Made by a program: the position numbers and the translations under genes. This document shows, one piece after another, positions 472-9,657 of a stretch of DNA of 64,000 nt. The stretch's first letter is position 1. Every line of letters begins with the position of its first letter. The notes beneath the pieces are model-generated. The model was not told the origin of the DNA. It saw only the letters and a list, made by a program, of their open reading frames with translations, and searched no databases. The DNA is from Gordonia araii NBRC 100433. Lineage in GTDB: Bacteria > Actinomycetota > Actinomycetes > Mycobacteriales > Mycobacteriaceae. Location: the NCBI RefSeq assembly GCF_000241265.1, contig NZ_BAEE01000011.1:1-64000 (forward strand), written 5' to 3'.

Positions 472-885
472 ATGTTCACGGAACCAGCTCCACGATCGAC
501 CACGCATTTGGTCGCGGCCCGCGCCGCAGGAATCATCGCAGCCACCGCCGCGTTGGGGCTGGCACTCACCCCCGCGACCGCATCGGCCGCGAACTACAAG
601 AACGGTTCGTTCTCGGGTACCGGGACGTACACGCTGCCGGTCGGGACCAGCGATCTCGGCGTTCAGATGGCGCTGGCGAACAACGTCGTCCGCTCGGCGT
701 CGGTGACCTACTCCGCCCTGCCCATCTCGCGGGAGTTCCAGACGAGGTGGTGGAACGCGTCAAGGGGCAAGATCGTCGGCAAGAACATCGACCAGATCCA
801 CGTCGGCAAGACCGCCGGATCGTCGCTGACCCCGAACGGCTTCAACGGCGCGCTCGCGCAGATCAAGAGTCAAGCGCGCCGGTGA
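472..885 (+). CDS. Secreted FMN-binding domain protein
   Basis: This 137-aa protein has an N-terminal signal sequence: a hydrophobic stretch at about residues 18-40 ending in TASA before ANYKNGSF. The mature part resembles a single FMN_bind domain, an extracytoplasmic domain that carries FMN covalently attached by ApbE. The C-terminal segment reads AGSSLTPNGFNGAL, which aligns with the usual SGAT-type flavinylation motif, with Ser in place of the acceptor Thr. Its stop overlaps the GTG start of the ApbE gene, and the third gene encodes a membrane NqrB/RnfD-like reductase. It is therefore likely the terminal extracytoplasmic electron carrier of that unit. Covalent FMN attachment is inferred, not shown. 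Confidence 0.75.
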   Translation: MFTEPAPRSTTHLVAARAAGIIAATAALGLALTPATASAANYKNGSFSGTGTYTLPVGTSDLGVQMALANNVVRSASVTYSALPISREFQTRWWNASRGKIVGKNIDQIHVGKTAGSSLTPNGFNGALAQIKSQARR

Positions 886-1784
886 CCCGGCCGCCGTCGG
901 CCCGCCCGACCGAGCCGGGCGCGGCGTCCGACTGGGTCTTCGACGCGCTCGGCACCCAGTGGGCGATCACCGTGCCCGAGCCGCTGCCCGCGTCGGCAGT
1001 CGAAGCGGTGGAAGCCGAACTGGACCGTATCGACGTAACGTGGTCGCGGTTTCGCGACGACTCGTTGGTCGCGCACGCGTCACGCGAAGCCGGCACGTAT
1101 CCGCTCGCCGCATCCGACCAGCCGCTGATCGACTGGTACCGACGGCTCTACGACGCGACGGGCGGGGCGTTCTCGCCGTTCGTCGGCCAAACCCTCGCCG
1201 ACGCGGGCTACGGCCCCGGCTACTCCCTGAACCCGGCCGAATCGGTGACGCCGGTGCCAGCGTGGGACGACGTCCTGACTGGATACCGGGGCGCCTTGGA
1301 AGTCGTTGCTCCGACGATGATCGACGTCGGCGCGGCGGGCAAGGGTTTCGCCGTCGACCGGGTCGCGCGGATCGTCGCCGAGTACACCGACACGTTCATC
1401 GTCGACGGCAGCGGCGACATGGTCGTGTCCGAGCGGACCACGCCGGTTCGCATCGCGCTGGAGCATCCGGCCGACCCGATGCAGGCGATCGGTGTCGTCG
1501 AATTGGCAACCGGCGCGATCTGCGCGTCGGCCGTGACCCGGCGGTCGTGGGCCGACTGGCACCACGTCGTCGACCCCCGCACGTCGCGACCGACCGTCGA
1601 TGTCGTCGCGACCTGGGTGGTCGCCGCGTCGACGATGATCGCCGACGGTCTCGCCACCGCGTTGTTCTTCACTCCGGCTGATGAATTGCACGATCGGCTC
1701 GGCATCGACTTCCGCTTCGTCACGATCTTCGCCGACGGTACCGCCGACTACTCACCGTGGCCCGGACTGGAACTGTTCTCGTGA
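882..1784 (+). CDS. apbE: FAD:protein FMN transferase (ApbE family)
   Basis: ApbE transfers FMN from FAD to a Ser/Thr of extracytoplasmic flavoproteins. This 300-aa copy has the family signatures: IDVGAAGKGFAVD (DxGxxxKG), VDGSGD, HHVVDPRTSRP, and a C-terminal TMIADGLATALF metal-site helix. The start is GTG at 882, overlapping the stop of the FMN-binding gene (GTGA), so the two are translationally coupled. The frame is open much further upstream, but that part is a shadow of the preceding genes. No signal peptide is evident at this start. The neighbouring FMN-binding protein is its probable substrate. Confidence 0.88.
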   Translation: MTRPPSARPTEPGAASDWVFDALGTQWAITVPEPLPASAVEAVEAELDRIDVTWSRFRDDSLVAHASREAGTYPLAASDQPLIDWYRRLYDATGGAFSPFVGQTLADAGYGPGYSLNPAESVTPVPAWDDVLTGYRGALEVVAPTMIDVGAAGKGFAVDRVARIVAEYTDTFIVDGSGDMVVSERTTPVRIALEHPADPMQAIGVVELATGAICASAVTRRSWADWHHVVDPRTSRPTVDVVATWVVAASTMIADGLATALFFTPADELHDRLGIDFRFVTIFADGTADYSPWPGLELFS

Positions 1785-3343
1785 ATCGCCTTGTGCCGGC
1801 GTGGCTTTCGCCGCACCGGACCGTGCTGCTGGCCCTCGTCGCACTGGCGGTCTACACGTTCGCACTCGCCGCCGTCGACATCGGCGACGAAGGTTTCGGC
1901 TACCGGCCGGCCGCACTCGTGCGCTCGTTGGTCGTCGTCATCGTCGTATCGGCCGTCGTCACATACGCCTGCGCCGCGGTCGTGCGGGTACCGCCCAATT
2001 CCGACTCGTGGCTCATCACGGCGCTCATCCTGTTCTTCGTCATGCCGGTGGGCGTCGACGCGGGGACGCTGAAAGCGGCGGCCCTCGGAGCGGTCGCCGC
2101 GTCGTTGTCGAAGTACGTGCTGGTGTGGCGCCGGCGGCTGATCGTCAACCCGGTCGTCGCGGGCGCGGTGACCTGCTACGTCTTCTCGTACGCCCAGATC
2201 GGCGGCATCGCGTACCTCTCGTGGTGGGTGGCCTCGCGGGAATTGCTCATCCCGATGATCGTGATCGGGGTCCTGACCATCACCGCCTTGCGCGAGTGGC
2301 CGTTGATCGTCGCCTACCTCGCGGCGGCGTTGTCCACGGCGGCGATCGCCGCGGCGGTGCACCCCACCGGCCACACTCTCGCGCTCATCCTCAACTCGAC
2401 GCCCCTGCTCTTCTTGGGCGTGTTCATGCTGCCGGAACCGTTGACCTCGCCGGCCACACGTCGGCCGCGGCTGGCGTACGGGGCGCTGGTCGGCACACTG
2501 ATGTACAGCTCGATCTACGTGAAGGTGACCGAGACGTACGCGTTCGGTTTCGATCCGGAGATCGCACTGCTGGTCGGATGCCTGTTCGCCTTCGCCGTGC
2601 GTCTCGCGTCGGGGACCGCGCGGCGCGTGCCACTCGACGTCTCGACGTCGCCGATGGTCGCTTCGACCTATCGGGTGTCGGCCGATGGTCGGGTCGCGTT
2701 CCGTCCCGGTCAGTGGGCGACGGTGAGCACGCCGCACTGGCGCTGGCCGCTCTGGGTGCGGTCGCGCCGGGTGTTCTCGTTCGCCTCCGCGCCGAACGCG
2801 TCGTCCGACGCCGGCCTCGTCGAGTTCGGTTTCACCGTGAGCCACACGCCGTCGCGGTTCAAGGACGCCCTGATCGGCGGGGCGCGCCGGGCATACGTGG
2901 ACAACGTCGGTGGTGACTTCGTGCTGGCGCCGCGGGTGCGGCGCAGCAGTAGGGTCGTGTTGATCAGCTCCGGCATCGGAATCACGCCGTTCGCGTCGAT
3001 GCTGCGTTCGCTGCTCGACGACGGGGAGGATCTCGCCGGGTTGGCGATCGTCCACGTCGTCCGGGCGGCCGATCGCGCCGCGTACGCCGATCTGGTGGAA
3101 CGCGCGGCTGCGTCGGGGGCCCTGGTCGGGTGCGTGGTGTCGGCGGAACTGGCCGACGGGTTCGACGCGGAGTCGTTGCGCGAGGTTCTGCCGTCCGCGT
3201 GGACTAGTGCCGACGCGACGCACTATTTCATCTCCGGCGCCCCGGCTTTCGTTGGGAGCACGGCGCGCTCGGTGCGGCGGGTGGATCCGAGGACCCTGTT
3301 GCGTCCTTGGCGGATCCACACCGATTCGTTCACCGGGTATTGA
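1781..3343 (+). CDS. NqrB/RnfD-like membrane domain fused to a ferredoxin-NAD(P) reductase domain
   Basis: This is a 520-aa fusion. Residues about 15-290 form a polytopic membrane domain; the segment PEPLTSPATRRPRLAYG matches the conserved MATDPVTSP-type signature of RnfD/NqrB subunits. Residues about 295-515 form an FNR-like module with RVFSFAS (RxYSxxS-type FAD motif) and SSGIGITPFASM (nucleotide-binding GxGxTP). The SGAT flavinylation motif of true NqrB/RnfD was not found, so the FMN probably sits on the separate secreted protein. The start is GTG at 1781, overlapping the apbE stop. The likely role is moving electrons from cytoplasmic NAD(P)H across the membrane to the flavinylated partner. 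The fusion reading is firm; the electron route is inferred. Confidence 0.75.
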   Translation: MNRLVPAWLSPHRTVLLALVALAVYTFALAAVDIGDEGFGYRPAALVRSLVVVIVVSAVVTYACAAVVRVPPNSDSWLITALILFFVMPVGVDAGTLKAAALGAVAASLSKYVLVWRRRLIVNPVVAGAVTCYVFSYAQIGGIAYLSWWVASRELLIPMIVIGVLTITALREWPLIVAYLAAALSTAAIAAAVHPTGHTLALILNSTPLLFLGVFMLPEPLTSPATRRPRLAYGALVGTLMYSSIYVKVTETYAFGFDPEIALLVGCLFAFAVRLASGTARRVPLDVSTSPMVASTYRVSADGRVAFRPGQWATVSTPHWRWPLWVRSRRVFSFASAPNASSDAGLVEFGFTVSHTPSRFKDALIGGARRAYVDNVGGDFVLAPRVRRSSRVVLISSGIGITPFASMLRSLLDDGEDLAGLAIVHVVRAADRAAYADLVERAAASGALVGCVVSAELADGFDAESLREVLPSAWTSADATHYFISGAPAFVGSTARSVRRVDPRTLLRPWRIHTDSFTGY

Positions 3344-3354
3344 GATCCGCGCCC

Positions 3355-3480
3355 GTCGTCGCCGAGCGTGCCCAGTTTCCCGCCGATCGTGCCCAGATTT
3401 CCGCCGAGTGTGCCCAGTTTCTCGCCGAGTGTGCCCAGATTTCCGCCGAGTGTGCCCAGTTTCTCGCCGAGTGTGCCTTC
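3355..3480 (+). repeat. 21-bp tandem repeat array 1 (3' side of the oxidoreductase gene)
   Basis: Five consecutive 21-base units run from 3368 to 3472, each starting GTGCCCAG and ending CGCCGA plus two bases, with partial units at both ends. Units alternate between GTGCCCAGTTT and GTGCCCAGATT versions, giving a 42-base higher-order period. The array begins 12 bases after the stop codon of the upstream gene. The same unit forms arrays at 4774 and 26319, also immediately downstream of genes and in the same orientation relative to the gene. Confidence 0.9.
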
Positions 3481-4299: not shown

Positions 4300-4365
4300 G
4301 AGTGGCCACTCGGCGTGGGTGAGGTGCCCACTCGGCGTGGGTGAGGTGCCCAGTCGGCGGTGGGG
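4300..4365. repeat. 22-bp tandem repeat between convergent genes
   Basis: Three units of 22 bases (4300-4321, 4322-4343, 4344-4365) share the core GTGCCCACTCGGCG followed by TGGGTG; the first has GTGGCCAC and the third is degenerate. It fills the gap between the stops of the convergent LLM and DoxX genes. It shares the GTGCCCA start with the 21-bp arrays but differs afterwards. Confidence 0.8.
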
Positions 4366-4750: not shown

Positions 4751-4773
4751 GAATCCCGATCATAGGGGTGACT

Positions 4774-4872
4774 GGGCACGGTCGGCGAGATCGTGGGCAC
4801 GGTCGGCGGGAATCTGGGCACGGTCGGCGGGAATCTGGGCACGGTCGGCGGGAATCTGGGCACGGTCGGCGG
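4774..4872 (-). repeat. 21-bp tandem repeat array 2 (3' side of the KshB-like gene)
   Basis: Four full 21-base units and one partial unit, each beginning GGGCACGGTCGGCG on the + strand, fill 4774-4872. Three central units are identical (GGGCACGGTCGGCGGGAA plus TCT). The array runs directly into the stop codon (4873-4875) of the minus-strand gene. Read on that gene's sense strand, the unit is the same as in array 1. Confidence 0.92.
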
Positions 4873-5931
4873 TCAGAACTCGATCTTGAGGCTGTCCGAC
4901 GTCGGGCGCGCCTGGCAGCCGAGGATGTAGCCGTCGGCGATGTCGTCAGGATCGAGCGCGCCGGCGTTCTCCATCTCGACCGTCCCCTCGGTCAACGTGC
5001 ATGCGCAGGAACCGCATTCGCCCTCTTGGCACGAGTACGGGGCGTCGAGCCCGGCGGCCAGCATGATGTCGATCAGCGTGCGCGAACGCGGCCACGCGAG
5101 GTTGTGCGTCTCGCCGTCGAGTTCGACCTCGACCTGTGCCGCCTCGGCGGCTTCTTCCTCGCTCACCGCTTCGTGCTCGACGTCGACGAACGGGTCGCCG
5201 CTCAACGAGTTGTAGACCTCGGTGTGCACGTTGTGGTGGTCGAACTTGGCCTTCGCCAGCGCCTCGTGAACGGCGTCCATGAAGGGGCCGGGTCCGCAGA
5301 TGTACGCCGAATGCGTGGCGGCCATCGGCTTGAAGAACGTCGCGAGCGCGCGCACGTCGGGCAGCCCCTGCAGCGACTCCAGCCAATGCACGACGGTGAG
5401 CCGGCCGGGGTTGGCGTGGTGCAGCTCGCGGAGGTCGTCGGCGAAGATGACGTCGGACTCGCTGCGATTGGCGTAGAAGAACGTGATCGGTCCGGTGCCC
5501 GTCTTCAGTGCCGTTTTGAGAATCGACATCACCGGCGTGACGCCGGACCCGGCGGCGATGAGCAGGAGGGGGACGTGGATGTTCGCGGGTGTGAAGACCC
5601 CGGACGGCGGCAGCGCCTCGATCTGCGATCCGGCCGCCAGGTTGTCGCAGACCCAGTTGGACCCGTAGCCGTCGGGAGTGCGTTTGACGGTGACTTTCGG
5701 CTGCTTGTCGGTGGCCGGTGCCGAGGACAGTGAGTAGCACCGCGCGACCGCGCCGGTTTGATCGCTCGGGATGCGCAGGGTGAGGAATTGGCCCGGCAGG
5801 TAGTCGGTGAACTTCTCGCCCATCGACTCGGGGACCTCGAACACGATGCTGCGCGCGTCGGACGTCTCGTCGACGACCTCGGCGACCGTCAGAATGACGC
5901 TGCGCGAGCCGTGCGGGGTCAGGTCGGCCAT
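4873..5931 (-). CDS. kshB: Ferredoxin reductase, 3-ketosteroid 9-alpha-hydroxylase reductase-like (KshB)
   Basis: A 352-aa reductase with an FAD domain (PGQFLTLRIPS, ARCYSLSSAP), a nucleotide domain (IAAGSGVTPVMS, YICGPGPFMDAV) and a C-terminal plant-type 2Fe-2S domain (CQEGECGSCAC with a distal Cys in LGCQARP). Order, length and local wording match KshB of mycobacteria and rhodococci, which passes NADH electrons to the Rieske oxygenase KshA in sterol-ring opening. A KstR-type dyad lies 21 bases upstream of the start, supporting a sterol role. KshA is not in the window. Related reductases serving other Rieske oxygenases are the main alternative. Confidence 0.75.
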   Translation of the reverse strand: MADLTPHGSRSVILTVAEVVDETSDARSIVFEVPESMGEKFTDYLPGQFLTLRIPSDQTGAVARCYSLSSAPATDKQPKVTVKRTPDGYGSNWVCDNLAAGSQIEALPPSGVFTPANIHVPLLLIAAGSGVTPVMSILKTALKTGTGPITFFYANRSESDVIFADDLRELHHANPGRLTVVHWLESLQGLPDVRALATFFKPMAATHSAYICGPGPFMDAVHEALAKAKFDHHNVHTEVYNSLSGDPFVDVEHEAVSEEEAAEAAQVEVELDGETHNLAWPRSRTLIDIMLAAGLDAPYSCQEGECGSCACTLTEGTVEMENAGALDPDDIADGYILGCQARPTSDSLKIEF

Positions 5932-5967: not shown

Positions 5968-6579
5968 TTAGCGCATCGTGGGGCCGGTTTGCGAGAGCGC
6001 GGCGTCGATCCCCACCGCGAGCAACCGACTTCCCTCGACGAGGAGGGTGCGCAGCCTAGCGGCGCTCGGATCCATCGGGCTGGCCAGCCACTGCTCATAG
6101 GCGGCGAGTGCAGTGCCCAGGGCGAGCCAGCCGATCAGCTGCGGCTGGTAGTCCTCGGGCCGCCGGCCCAGCCGCGTGGCCGCATAGGCGGCGATCGCCT
6201 GGCGCCAATCGGCGTACATCAGCATCGAATGCGCCTGCAGGGCGGGAACCGTGAGCAGCAGGCGCATGCGTCGGCGGTGCCGCGCCGCATGCTCCTCGGG
6301 GAGGTCGTTGAACTCGACCAGCGCCTCGGCGAGGGCATCGGCAAGCGGCAGATCGTCGGGAAGTTCGGCGAGCAGCGCGCGCATGTCGTCGAGATGGGCG
6401 TCGAAGTCGCCCCAGGCGATGGCATTCTTCGACGGGTAGTAGCGGAACAGGGTCCGGCGGGCGATGCCGGCGGCGTCGGCGATCTCGTCGACGCTCGTCG
6501 TGTCGAATCCGCGGCGATCGAAGAGGTCGATGGCGATGTCGCTGATCCGCGTCCGCGTGGTGACCGGCCGCCGGCTCAT
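5968..6579 (-). CDS. mftR: Mycofactocin system TetR-family regulator
   Basis: This 203-aa TetR protein has its helix-turn-helix in residues about 10-56 ([39 protein letters not shown], the typical [15 protein letters not shown] of this subgroup). The C-terminal part is the ligand-binding helical domain. It sits divergently from mftA with 107 bases between starts, the standard place for MftR. MftR is reported as a repressor of the mycofactocin genes that responds to acyl-CoAs. The assignment rests on position plus family resemblance. Confidence 0.82.
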
Positions 6580-6615
6580 TCCGTCCTCCTTCGGCCGGTC
6601 GCAAGAACTGGGGTG

Positions 6616-6664
6616 TTGTGTTTATGCACTCGGTGCCATTATATTCGATCGTGATCCACATCAC
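6616..6664 (+). promoter_or_regulatory. Probable mftA promoter with overlapping operator dyad
   Basis: TTGTGT (6616-6621) and TATATT (6640-6645) are spaced by 18 bases and resemble a housekeeping promoter, placing the transcript start near 6652. A dyad, GTGAT CCAC ATCAC (6651-6664), overlaps that point and is a candidate site for the divergent MftR. A strong ribosome binding site, AGGAGG, follows at 6674-6679. Confidence 0.5.
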
Positions 6665-6686
6665 TAGCCCAACAGGAGGTTGGATC

Positions 6687-6794
6687 ATGGCCGATCAGAA
6701 CAATGTCGATCAGCAAGGTGTCACCGACACGGGACTCGTCAGCGAATCGCTGGTCGAGGAGGTCTCGATCGACGGGATGTGCGGGGTCTACTGA
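6687..6794 (+). CDS. mftA: Mycofactocin precursor peptide
   Basis: A 35-residue peptide starting [11 protein letters not shown] and ending in the diagnostic IDGMCGVY. The C-terminal Val-Tyr is the pair that the radical SAM enzyme MftC decarboxylates and crosslinks to make the redox cofactor mycofactocin. AGGAGG lies seven bases upstream of the ATG. The stop overlaps the ATG of mftB (ATGA), so translation is coupled. The conserved C-terminus makes the call near certain. Confidence 0.97.
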
Positions 6795-7135
6795 TGAGTG
6801 CCCCCGTTTCGGCAACCCACCCCGGCGGTCGCGAGGCCGCCGGGGAGGGTGTCCCGGCTTTCGACATCGGCGCCGCGTGGCAGCTCAACCCCAAGGTCGC
6901 GGTGCGCCCCGAACCCTTCGGTGCGCTGCTGTACCACTTCGGCACTCGTAAACTTTCATTCCTCAAGAACCGGACTGTCGTCGGAATCGTGCAAACGCTG
7001 CACGAGTACCCCGACGCGGACTCAGCCCTCACCGCCGCCGGCATCGACGCCCAGTCGCGCCCGCTCTATGTGCAGGCGCTCACCGCGCTCGCCGATTCCG
7101 GCATGATCATCCGCATTCAGGAGCCAGCCCAGTGA
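6794..7135 (+). CDS. mftB: Mycofactocin precursor-binding chaperone
   Basis: This 113-aa protein matches MftB, a PqqD-like RiPP recognition element that holds MftA for MftC. Typical segments are FDIGAAWQLNPKVAVRPEPFGALLYHFGTRKLSFLKNR and a winged-helix-like C-terminal half. The start is ATG 6794, overlapping the mftA stop, although the frame is open slightly upstream. The stop overlaps the GTG of mftC. Confidence 0.93.
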   Translation: MSAPVSATHPGGREAAGEGVPAFDIGAAWQLNPKVAVRPEPFGALLYHFGTRKLSFLKNRTVVGIVQTLHEYPDADSALTAAGIDAQSRPLYVQALTALADSGMIIRIQEPAQ

Positions 7136-8406
7136 CCACTCTGGAATTCCCCGCGGACGTCCGCGACCGTGAGAAGCCCCCGGTCGTCGGCCGTCTCGTC
7201 GACCAGTTCGAGCGCGGACTCGACGCGCCGATCTGTCTGACCTGGGAGTTGACCTACGCCTGCAACCTCGCCTGCGTGCACTGCCTCTCGTCGTCGGGCA
7301 AGCGCGACCCGCGCGAGCTGTCCACCGAGCAATGCAAGGCGATCATCGACGAGCTGCAGCGCATGCAGGTGTTCTACGTCAACATCGGCGGCGGCGAGCC
7401 GACCGTGCGCCCGGATTTCTGGGAACTCGTCGACTACGCCACCAGCCACCAGGTCGGCGTGAAGTTCTCGACCAACGGCCTGCGCATCACGCCCGACGTG
7501 GCCGCGCGCTTGGCGGCGTCGGATTATGTCGACGTCCAGATCTCGCTCGACGGCGCCACCGCCGAGGTCAACGACGCGGTGCGCGGCCCCGGATCCTTCG
7601 ACATGGCCGTCCGCGCGTTGGAGAATCTGCGCGACGCGGGCTTCGCCGACGCCAAGATCAGCGTCGTCATGACCCGGCACAACGTCGCACAGCTCGACGA
7701 GTTCAAAGCGCTGGCCGACCGGTACAACGCGACGCTGCGCATCACGCGGATGCGCCCGTCGGGCCGCGGTGCCGACGTGTGGGACGACCTGCACCCGCTG
7801 CCGCACCAGCAGCGCGAGCTGTACGACTGGCTCGTCGCGCACGGCGACCGTGTGCTCACCGGTGACTCCTTCTTCCACCTCTCGGCGTTCTCGTCAGGCG
7901 CCGGCAGCGGCCTGCCCGGCCTGAACCTGTGCGGCGCCGGTCGCGTGGTCTGCCTGATCGACCCGGTCGGCGACGTCTACGCCTGCCCGTTCGCGATTCA
8001 CGAGAACTTCCTCGCCGGCAATATCGCCACCGACGGCGGGTTCCAGGAGATCTGGCAGCGTTCGGCGCTGTTCACCTCGTTGCGCGAACCGCAGAGCGCC
8101 GGTGCGTGCGCGTCGTGCAACCACTTCGACGCGTGCCGAGGCGGGTGCATGGCGGCGAAGTTCTTCACCGGGCTGCCGTTGGACGGGCCGGACCCCGAAT
8201 GCGTGCAGGGCTACGGCGAGCAACTGCTCGCCGGTGAGCGCACCAAGCCGACCGCGAACAAAGATCACTCGCGCGGCGTGCCGCTCACGCTGATGACCCG
8301 GCCACCGGAGCAGCCGCCCGCTCGGGGCTGCGACGAGAACCCGCTTGCGGGATTCCTGCCGACGACGGCGACGGGCTGCTCGTCGTCGTCCTGCAGCACC
8401 TGTTGA
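7132..8406 (+). CDS. mftC: Mycofactocin radical SAM maturase
   Basis: A 424-aa radical SAM/SPASM enzyme. The [4Fe-4S]-SAM motif is CNLACVHC (Cys44, Cys48, Cys51), followed by the GGGEPT motif and, in the C-terminal part, a SPASM cluster region (CGAGRVVCLIDPVGDVYACPF and CASCNHFDACRGGC). MftC oxidatively decarboxylates the C-terminal Tyr of MftA and then forms the Val-Tyr C-C bond. The tail is unusually Cys/Ser rich (TGCSSSSCSTC). GTG at 7132 overlaps the mftB stop. Confidence 0.96.
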   Translation: MTTLEFPADVRDREKPPVVGRLVDQFERGLDAPICLTWELTYACNLACVHCLSSSGKRDPRELSTEQCKAIIDELQRMQVFYVNIGGGEPTVRPDFWELVDYATSHQVGVKFSTNGLRITPDVAARLAASDYVDVQISLDGATAEVNDAVRGPGSFDMAVRALENLRDAGFADAKISVVMTRHNVAQLDEFKALADRYNATLRITRMRPSGRGADVWDDLHPLPHQQRELYDWLVAHGDRVLTGDSFFHLSAFSSGAGSGLPGLNLCGAGRVVCLIDPVGDVYACPFAIHENFLAGNIATDGGFQEIWQRSALFTSLREPQSAGACASCNHFDACRGGCMAAKFFTGLPLDGPDPECVQGYGEQLLAGERTKPTANKDHSRGVPLTLMTRPPEQPPARGCDENPLAGFLPTTATGCSSSSCSTC

Positions 8407-8439
8407 TTCCCCGCCAACCGCACATCCCGAGGAGTACCC

Positions 8440-9657
8440 GTGTCCAAGTTCGCCGAGCTCATGGAGCGCAACCCGTGGCGCCGCAACCCGTGGTTCGAGA
8501 CCGTCGGGGAGGCGCAGCGCCGGGCTCAGAAGCGACTGCCCAAGACGGTGTACTCGTCGCTGGTCGCGGGCACGCAGGCCGGCATCACCGTCACCGATAA
8601 CGTCGAGGCGTTCAACGAGCTGGGTTTCGCCCCGCATGTCGTCGGCGCGACGCCGGAACGCAACCTCACCACGACGGTGATGGGGCAGGAGATCTCCTTC
8701 CCGGTGCTGATCTCGCCCACCGGGGTGCAGGCGGTCGACCCCGACGGTGAGGTGGCCGTCGCGCGCGCGGCCGCCAACCGCGGGACCGCGATGGGCCTGT
8801 CGAGCTTTGCTTCCAAGCCCGTCGAAGAGGTCACCGCCGTCAACGACAAGATCTTCTTTCAGATCTACTGGCTGGGCAGCCGCGAGGACATCCTCGCCCG
8901 CGCCCAGCGCGCCAAGGAAGCCGGCTGCAAGGGCTTGATCGTCACGACCGACTGGGTGTTCAACGTCGGCCGGGACTGGGGCAGCCCGGAGATCCCCGAG
9001 AAGGTCGACGTGCGGGCGGTCGCCAAGCTGGCGCCGGAAATTATCACCAAGCCGCGCTACGCGATGAGCTGGTTCCGCGACGGCAAGCTGATCATCCCGG
9101 ACCTGTCGGCGCCGAACATCGCCCACAAGGGCGAAGACGGACCGACGTTCTTCGACGTCTACGGCACCTGGATGAACACGCCGCCGCCCACCTGGGAAGA
9201 CCTGCAGTGGCTGCGCGAGCAGTGGGACGGGCCGTTCATGGTCAAGGGGATCACGCGGCTCGACGACGCGAAGCGCGCCGTCGACATCGGCGCGTCCGCG
9301 ATCTCGGTGTCGAACCACGGCGGCAACAACCTCGACGGCACGCCCGCGACGATCCGCGTGCTGGGCCCGATCGCCGACGCGGTCGGGAACGACGTCGAGG
9401 TCCTGCTCGACGGCGGCATCCGTCGCGGCAGCGATGTCGTCAAGGCGCTGGCCCTCGGGGCGAAGGCCGTCATGATCGGCCGCGCGTACCTGTGGGGTCT
9501 CGCCGCGAACGGGCAGGCCGGCGTCGAGAACGTCCTCGACCTGCTGCGGATGGGCATCGACTCGTCACTCATGGGACTCGGCAAGGACGACGTCGCGAAG
9601 CTCTCGCGCGACGACCTGATCATCCCGGACGGCTTCGAGCGAGAGTTCGGGAACTGA
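8440..9657 (+). CDS. mftD: Mycofactocin biosynthesis FMN-dependent oxidase
   Basis: A 405-aa member of the FMN-dependent alpha-hydroxy-acid dehydrogenase family (TIM barrel). Visible motifs are the active-site VSNHGGNNLDG, LLDGGIRRGSDVVKALALGAKAVMIGR and the N-terminal NPWRRNPWFETVGEAQRRAQKRLPK typical of MftD. MftD oxidatively deaminates the AHDP intermediate to give the redox-active alpha-keto amide of premycofactocin. Start GTG 8440, 33 bases after mftC. The gene order after mftD departs from the usual mftDEF run. Confidence 0.94.
   Translation: MSKFAELMERNPWRRNPWFETVGEAQRRAQKRLPKTVYSSLVAGTQAGITVTDNVEAFNELGFAPHVVGATPERNLTTTVMGQEISFPVLISPTGVQAVDPDGEVAVARAAANRGTAMGLSSFASKPVEEVTAVNDKIFFQIYWLGSREDILARAQRAKEAGCKGLIVTTDWVFNVGRDWGSPEIPEKVDVRAVAKLAPEIITKPRYAMSWFRDGKLIIPDLSAPNIAHKGEDGPTFFDVYGTWMNTPPPTWEDLQWLREQWDGPFMVKGITRLDDAKRAVDIGASAISVSNHGGNNLDGTPATIRVLGPIADAVGNDVEVLLDGGIRRGSDVVKALALGAKAVMIGRAYLWGLAANGQAGVENVLDLLRMGIDSSLMGLGKDDVAKLSRDDLIIPDGFEREFGN

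Follow-up and report, generated by a model that had tools for sequence, protein, structure and literature searches.

Three overlapping genes from Gordonia araii NBRC 100433 probably specify a minimal unit of the NQR/RNF-like type that carries electrons outward, judging from sequence, structural models and analogy with published systems. The genes lie within 472–3343 of the window, by which we mean the whole 64,000-nucleotide stretch of DNA that was analysed, and encode an FMN-binding protein, an ApbE and an NqrB/RnfD-type membrane domain fused to a reductase (Table 1). This composition, which an earlier note had read from the sequence, was borne out by ORFs, Pfam, fold matches and genus orthologues. 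The coupling through overlapping stops and starts that the note described consists of a four-base overlap, GTGA, at each of the two junctions. As the window starts at the contig start, where the upstream neighbour is a partial ORF (1–402), genes before this ORF were not visible. The fusion gene adjoined apbE in all 31 genus genomes that carried it, and the FMN-binding gene was at the operon in 30 of these 31; the unit is therefore no chance juxtaposition. Gene order, domain folds, conserved motifs and co-occurrence are observations and are described as such below.

Table 1. Coordinates of the three genes and of the motifs discussed in the text (positions in the window).
Feature	Position	Strand	Evidence
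FMN-binding-domain protein, 137 aa	472..885	+	ORF, family profile, fold
apbE, FAD:protein FMN transferase, 300 aa, GTG start	882..1784	+	Pfam ApbE
NqrB/RnfD-type membrane domain and FAD/NAD(P)H reductase in a single chain, 520 aa, GTG start	1781..3343	+	
Codons A115-G-S-S-L-T120, predicted ApbE acceptor motif	814..831	+	counted from sequence
Codons W148-W149 of the fusion, at the inferred position of the RnfD/NqrB SGAT flavin site	2222..2227	+	
Codons E219-P-L-T-S-P-A-T226 of the fusion	2435..2458	+	
Codons R329-R-V-F-S333, reductase module of the fusion	2765..2779	+	
Codons G398-I-G-I-T-P403 of the fusion	2972..2989	+	

In the proposed mechanism, NAD(P)H would reduce FAD in the cytosolic reductase module, and electrons would pass from there to a flavin that the NqrB/RnfD-type membrane domain binds non-covalently, then to the FMN carried by the exported FMN-binding protein and finally to some acceptor in the envelope. 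This FMN would be attached by the operon ApbE, the likeliest site being S118 of A-G-S-S-L-T. The membrane flavin is taken to be non-covalent following Huang 2024 (PMC11334425), there being neither a covalent site nor a 2Fe-2S domain here. The direction of flow, the flavinylation, its compartment and the membrane flavin are what we infer. A minimal NAD(P)H-to-extracytoplasmic flavin system, as suggested in the earlier note, is the best reading, with which the folds, the motifs and the published model (PMC8238504; PMC11334425) agree.

The fusion protein was divided, by Pfam and model alignment, into a membrane domain (about residues 6–279) and a reductase module (about 280–520). PF03116 (NQR2_RnfD_RnfE) matched N-terminally (E 3.1e-7, 30.5 bits against a cut-off of 27.7) and PF00175 (NAD_binding_1) matched C-terminally in the same chain (E 6.3e-5, 24.0 bits against 22); the Pfam scan revealed no Fer2 (2Fe-2S) domain in the fusion. 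An alignment of the AlphaFold model (mean pLDDT 86, 30 sequences) with solved structures matched residues 6–278 to Azotobacter RnfD (Z 23.5, 244 residues, rmsd 3.0), residues 6–279 to NqrB (Z 22.8, 256 residues, rmsd 3.4) and residues 277–519 to the FAD domain of NqrF (Z 22.4, 226 residues, rmsd 2.6) and to similar reductases. The RnfD and NqrB chains were also found by sequence alone with a profile of 30 membrane domains (8ahx_D, 1.4e-9; NqrB, 5e-5). It is highly improbable that the flow is inward, from envelope electrons to NAD(P)H, or that the protein is an NADPH oxidase-like source of superoxide; the reductase module was as similar to the SpNOX and flavohemoglobin modules as to that of NqrF, but the membrane part is RnfD/NqrB-like and not of the heme type, and the window genome had no match to PF02508 (RnfA/E or NqrD/E subunits), a family matched in four of 14 control genomes.

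Further evidence for the outward unit came from conservation of the fusion protein. A first scan of the genome collection with a single-protein query returned no relatives; a scan with an alignment query returned 185, and the counts for the wider set all come from the best 80 of these. An alignment of 86 fusion proteins (the best 80 of 185 relatives, the window and five genus members) showed N123, W148, F211, M216, E219, P220, T222, G310, R329, R330, G378 and GIGITP (398–403) to be invariant. The PLTSPAT signature, which the earlier note had seen in the membrane part, is present at residues 220–226. RR-x-[FL]-[ST] and GIGITP were found in 86 of the same 86 proteins (best 80 of 185, window and five genus members); in the window, we take R329-R-V-F-S333 to be the FAD-binding motif, and G398-I-G-I-T-P403 is presumably the NAD(P)-binding motif.

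The same note had also held that the membrane part lacks the SGAT flavin site, and closer alignment revealed no intact SGAT at the expected site. The motif [ST]GA[ST] occurred in the membrane domain of none of 29 genus fusion proteins (of the 31, L020, split by a stop, was omitted from the genus alignment) and of two of 81 wider fusion proteins (the window and the best 80 of 185 relatives), in neither case at the expected site. These candidates, TGAS/TGAT at residues 123–126 of L078 and L100, near the N-P-A segment by position, and SGAS at 193 of L100, elsewhere than the expected site, were rejected as flavin sites. From helix order and the conserved N-P upstream, W148-W149 was placed in the loop that holds the SGAT site in RnfD/NqrB; W148 was present in 86 and W149 in 85 of the 86 aligned fusion proteins (best 80 of 185, window and five genus members).

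Analysis of the FMN-binding protein revealed a hydrophobic N-terminal signal and a domain at about residues 43–137, with neither a lipoprotein cysteine nor a twin arginine. The window protein alone matched no Pfam family at E ≤ 1, PF04205 (FMN_bind) included; at the same threshold, when the window protein was aligned with 29 genus orthologues, 26 of these 30 sequences matched PF04205 (best 2.6e-6); L014 was absent from this alignment, having no FMN-binding gene at the operon. The best solved match of the model was domain 2 of SaFMN3, an FMN domain from a multi-flavin protein (Z 10.2, rmsd 2.1 over 87 aligned). NqrC (Z 8.0) and RnfG (Z 7.7) also aligned, and IscU folds stood less than one Z unit behind the best match (9.3 against 10.2). 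Foldseek gave a best E-value of 0.01 and none below 0.001, and when the FMN-binding alignment was run as a profile against solved structures, only chance ribosomal matches came back. The lack of a Pfam match, the Foldseek E-value and the ranking of IscU folds count against the exporter. With IscU folds so close behind SaFMN3, the fold alone would not settle the identity of the protein; orthology does so, and as it has no Pfam match of its own while 26 of 30 members match, we name it FMN-binding by orthology and fold.

A cysteine was present at the end of the signal in 26 of the 30 genus FMN-binding proteins; it was lost in the window, L015, L016 and L019, which were also without the Ser/Thr-rich spacer. 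Twin-arginine-like strings were found in only two of 75 FMN-binding N-termini (best 80 of 185 wider loci), which makes Sec the likely export route.

At the expected attachment point the secreted protein has AGSS (residues 115–118), just as the earlier note had it. This differs from the published acceptor motif [S/T]GA[S/T], and of the five fixed positions in D-x-x-[ST]-G-A-[ST] three do not agree. The acceptor region read K-[VT]-[AS]-G-S-S-L-T in all 30 genus FMN-binding proteins, with GSSLT invariant. Serine also stood at the Ala position of SGAT in 43 of 76 rows of the wider set (75 FMN-binding matches in 74 of the best 80 of 185 relatives, plus the window), and the remaining rows read SGAT, SGAS, TGAT or AGAS. 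By alignment, AGSS is normal for this branch and neither a decayed SGAT nor a one-off change. Among the matches listed in a literature search on flavinylation and FMN-binding, none contained GSSLT. The motif [S/T]GA[S/T] is given for ApbE substrates in general and stands outside the defining criteria of NQR/RNF-like clusters (PMC8238504).

The deviant motif, and an ApbE without a signal although its substrate is exported, count against the exporter; they would fit an FMN-binding protein that in this branch is not covalently flavinylated and has FMN loosely bound or serves as an anchored partner, while ApbE modifies something else. We consider this unlikely, given the invariance of G-S-S-L-T, the constant position of apbE beside the fusion gene and the finding of no second FMN-binding protein of this kind in a profile search of the window genome. 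In addition, a published change of D to A had a minor effect, and one of A to V left about half (PMC12052999).

The window ApbE matched PF02424 (1.2e-36) and carried the loop C214-A-S216-A-V-T-R-R, H228 and D255. Wider ApbEs fell into two classes, set by their score against a genus ApbE profile (class A 220–481 bits, class B 24–44) with the acceptor motif not consulted. S216, H228 and D255, which were also aligned to 6nxi, were invariant in both classes, and the Ser, His and Asp align with the V. cholerae ApbE residues named in PMC12052999. Ahead of the catalytic His, class A read C-A-S-A-x-x-R-R-x-W and class B A-T-S-G; T-S-G at this loop is also found in the E. coli, Vibrio and Thermotoga ApbEs.

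Acceptor motif and ApbE class were compared at the 69 of 80 wider loci (best 80 of 185 relatives) with both proteins. A Ser-type acceptor went with class A at 41 of these loci and with class B at none; an Ala-type acceptor went with class B at 26 and with class A at two (L064 and L072). The other 11 comprised five Ala-type loci with no ApbE in the flank, two class A loci with no FMN-binding protein and four with neither, such that the FMN-binding domain was not found at six and ApbE at nine of the best 80 of 185 loci, some of which were contig ends or had short flanks. Class A with the Ser-type motif occurred in Saccharibacteria, Uhrbacteria and Actinomycetota among the best 80 of 185 relatives, and the Actinomycetota MAG L090 carried the other pair (Ala-type with class B). 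On a tree of 81 fusion proteins (best 80 of 185 and the window) the motif changed twice and the ApbE class once. An independent-pairs test was unable to reach significance on this tree, and independent co-evolution of the two was rejected as a claim; such few events amount to one old switch and not to repeated evidence. The link, that [A/S]-G-S-S-L-T goes with a distinct CASA-loop ApbE branch and not with ATSG, is thus no more than suggestive.

An export or lipoprotein signal is typical of ApbE though not universal, and hence not defining. Gene starts are predictions. Export was scored as a 13-residue hydropathy window reaching 1.6 ahead of the ApbE domain. This value was reached in none of the 30 genus loci measured (the 31st was too short), whereas all 30 FMN-binding proteins of the genus reached it by the same measure. 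Among the best 80 of 185 wider loci, L070 was the one case in 41 class A stretches, and there the stretch lies ahead of an ATG at the domain; a further three class A stretches were too short. In the same set the value was reached in five of 27 class B stretches, where the 13 residues mostly take in the first strand of the domain, and in 66 of 75 FMN-binding proteins. Additionally, a stop about 15 codons or less before the ApbE domain leaves no room for a signal in several loci. The window ApbE had no signal peptide or lipoprotein signal by the hydropathy measure and in the upstream stretch, and no second ApbE was found in the window genome; the operon ApbE was the sole ApbE in 29 of the 31 genus genomes with the system. 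Standalone genus ApbEs also seemed signal-less by eye, so the missing signal is not special to the operon. In G033 and G024, which do not have the fusion system, two SGAT FMN-binding proteins with a membrane anchor (L135 and L136) adjoined signal-less ApbEs.

The sequences raise the point that flavinylation may precede export. A second flavinylation code is a tentative possibility, in which a cytosolic CASA-loop ApbE would recognise K-x-[A/S]-G-S-S-L-T in place of D-x-x-[S/T]-G-A-[S/T] and FMN would be attached before Sec passage, so that no FAD export would be needed.

The family-wide survey of the fusion proposed in the earlier note covered 59 genus genomes, 31 of which had the fusion gene, and the best 80 of 185 wider relatives, and revealed a recurrent architecture. 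Every one of the 31 genus genomes that carry the fusion gene also encoded an FMN-binding protein showing the acceptor region, and none of the other 28 did. At L014 the FMN-binding gene was lost from the operon; three genomes had a separate, cysteine-bearing FMN-binding gene elsewhere, without a second ApbE, namely G004 (L014), G032 (L015) and G045 (L019). The three genomes that have the operon at a new place contained orphan FMN-binding lipoprotein genes, adjoining neither apbE nor the fusion gene, at L124 (6372–6905), L125 (2462–3064) and L126 (6481–7002). The fusion gene was broken by a frameshift or stop in four of 31 genus copies (L016, L019, L020 and L040), so the unit may be dispensable, a point against the exporter; these copies occur in drafts and one two-contig genome, and may reflect decay or sequencing error. 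Beyond the genus the system has a scattered distribution: at 1e-10 the membrane-domain profile matched 11 of 121 genomes of the order (even draw), in four of 49 genera, four of the 11 matches scoring only 53–79 bits.

The operon occupied at least three genomic settings among the genus loci. No acceptor enzyme was recognised beside it, which also counts against the exporter. Neighbours were discarded as a clue to the acceptor, with no gene conserved beyond genera apart from response-regulator-like ORFs, which were seen by eye in 12 of 80 wider loci (best 80 of 185 relatives). Site scans used what we take to be the DtxR/IdeR consensus. Sites like it ahead of the 31 genus operons were scattered and weak with no consistent box, and iron regulation was not adopted. 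A role in iron assimilation, a special case of the exporter in which the exported flavin reduces ferric siderophores or minerals, is weighed as unlikely: half sites preceded some genus operons (best 14/19, in L015), but the best site in the window scored 11/19, most genus operons had none, and inspection by eye of the operon's neighbours at the 31 genus loci showed no iron genes. VIT1 iron transporters in six of 127 published NQR/RNF-like clusters (PMC8238504) are in its favour.

Other features of the surroundings were as follows. A direct repeat, T[TC]ACCT-N5-T[TC]ACCT, occurred once each in nine of 31 genus loci (L020, L028, L029, L031, L032, L035, L040, L041 and L042), 116–174 bases before the aligned start of the FMN-binding gene and nowhere else therein; a stricter form was found in seven of 59 genomes, once each and always ahead of the operon. 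The repeat was absent ahead of the window operon. A 21-base tandem repeat, CGCCGAGTGTGCCCAGTTTCC, was present in 5.6 copies after the operon (3360–3477) and also at 4302–4364 and 4772–4872; about five in-frame copies of a unit near-identical to CGCCGAGTGTGCCCAGTTTCC lay in the membrane-reductase linker of the L042 fusion gene (7363–8988). A PaaE-like reductase with a 2Fe-2S domain was encoded on the opposite strand at 4873–5931, 1.5 kb downstream of the operon. The mycofactocin genes mftR, mftB and mftC (5968–8406) lay at least 2.6 kb downstream; as the operon is elsewhere in most relatives, this proximity is probably coincidence.

NQR/RNF-like systems have been described as a PF03116 membrane domain fused to a PF00175 reductase with an ApbE and an FMN-binding protein, in Actinobacteria and candidate phyla, and a membrane subunit without a covalent flavin site is among their published traits (PMC8238504; PMC11334425). 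Outward electron flow from NAD(P)H to the extracytosolic side has been proposed for them (PMC8238504; PMC11334425; preprint PMC10979944). The window unit, with PF03116 and PF00175 in one chain, a flavinylation gene cluster and no membrane flavinylation site, is a member of these systems and shares their domain architecture, partners and missing membrane flavin site; as architecture, electron path and missing site are already published, its kind and the main claim of the earlier note are not new. It differs in the acceptor of its branch ([A/S]GSS against [S/T]GA[S/T]), in an FMN-binding protein that escapes Pfam and has no lipoprotein cysteine, and in an ApbE without a signal peptide, a trait unmentioned in the main-text parts of PMC8238504 and PMC11334425 consulted. 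The AGSS rule with its CASA ApbE, the signal-less ApbE and the lost lipoprotein cysteine go beyond those published main texts, whose supplements may list the species of the window or its motif. If this variant holds, searches by [S/T]GA[S/T] or PF04205 would miss this FMN-binding protein, and it would be asked whether a covalent-FMN protein can pass the Sec channel or ApbE exits by a way invisible in its sequence, which would bear on the maturation of envelope electron transfer proteins in Actinobacteria and candidate phyla bacteria.

Compared with RNF and Na+-NQR, the unit has the RnfD/NqrB, NqrF FAD module and NqrC/RnfG folds in common, but only one path, no RnfA/E or NqrD/E subunits in the genome, no 2Fe-2S domain in the fusion and no SGAT in the membrane subunit; it is therefore not a complete RNF/NQR pump. 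The MsrQ-like flavinylation systems of Actinobacteria (PMC8238504) likewise deliver electrons to an exported flavinylated protein, as predicted here; their membrane protein is of the heme type whereas that of the window is of the NqrB/RnfD type. The ApbE of Klebsiella pneumoniae fumarate reductase (PMC12052999) also has no signal peptide, but its soluble fumarate reductase substrate stays in the cytosol, whereas the substrate of the window ApbE is exported.
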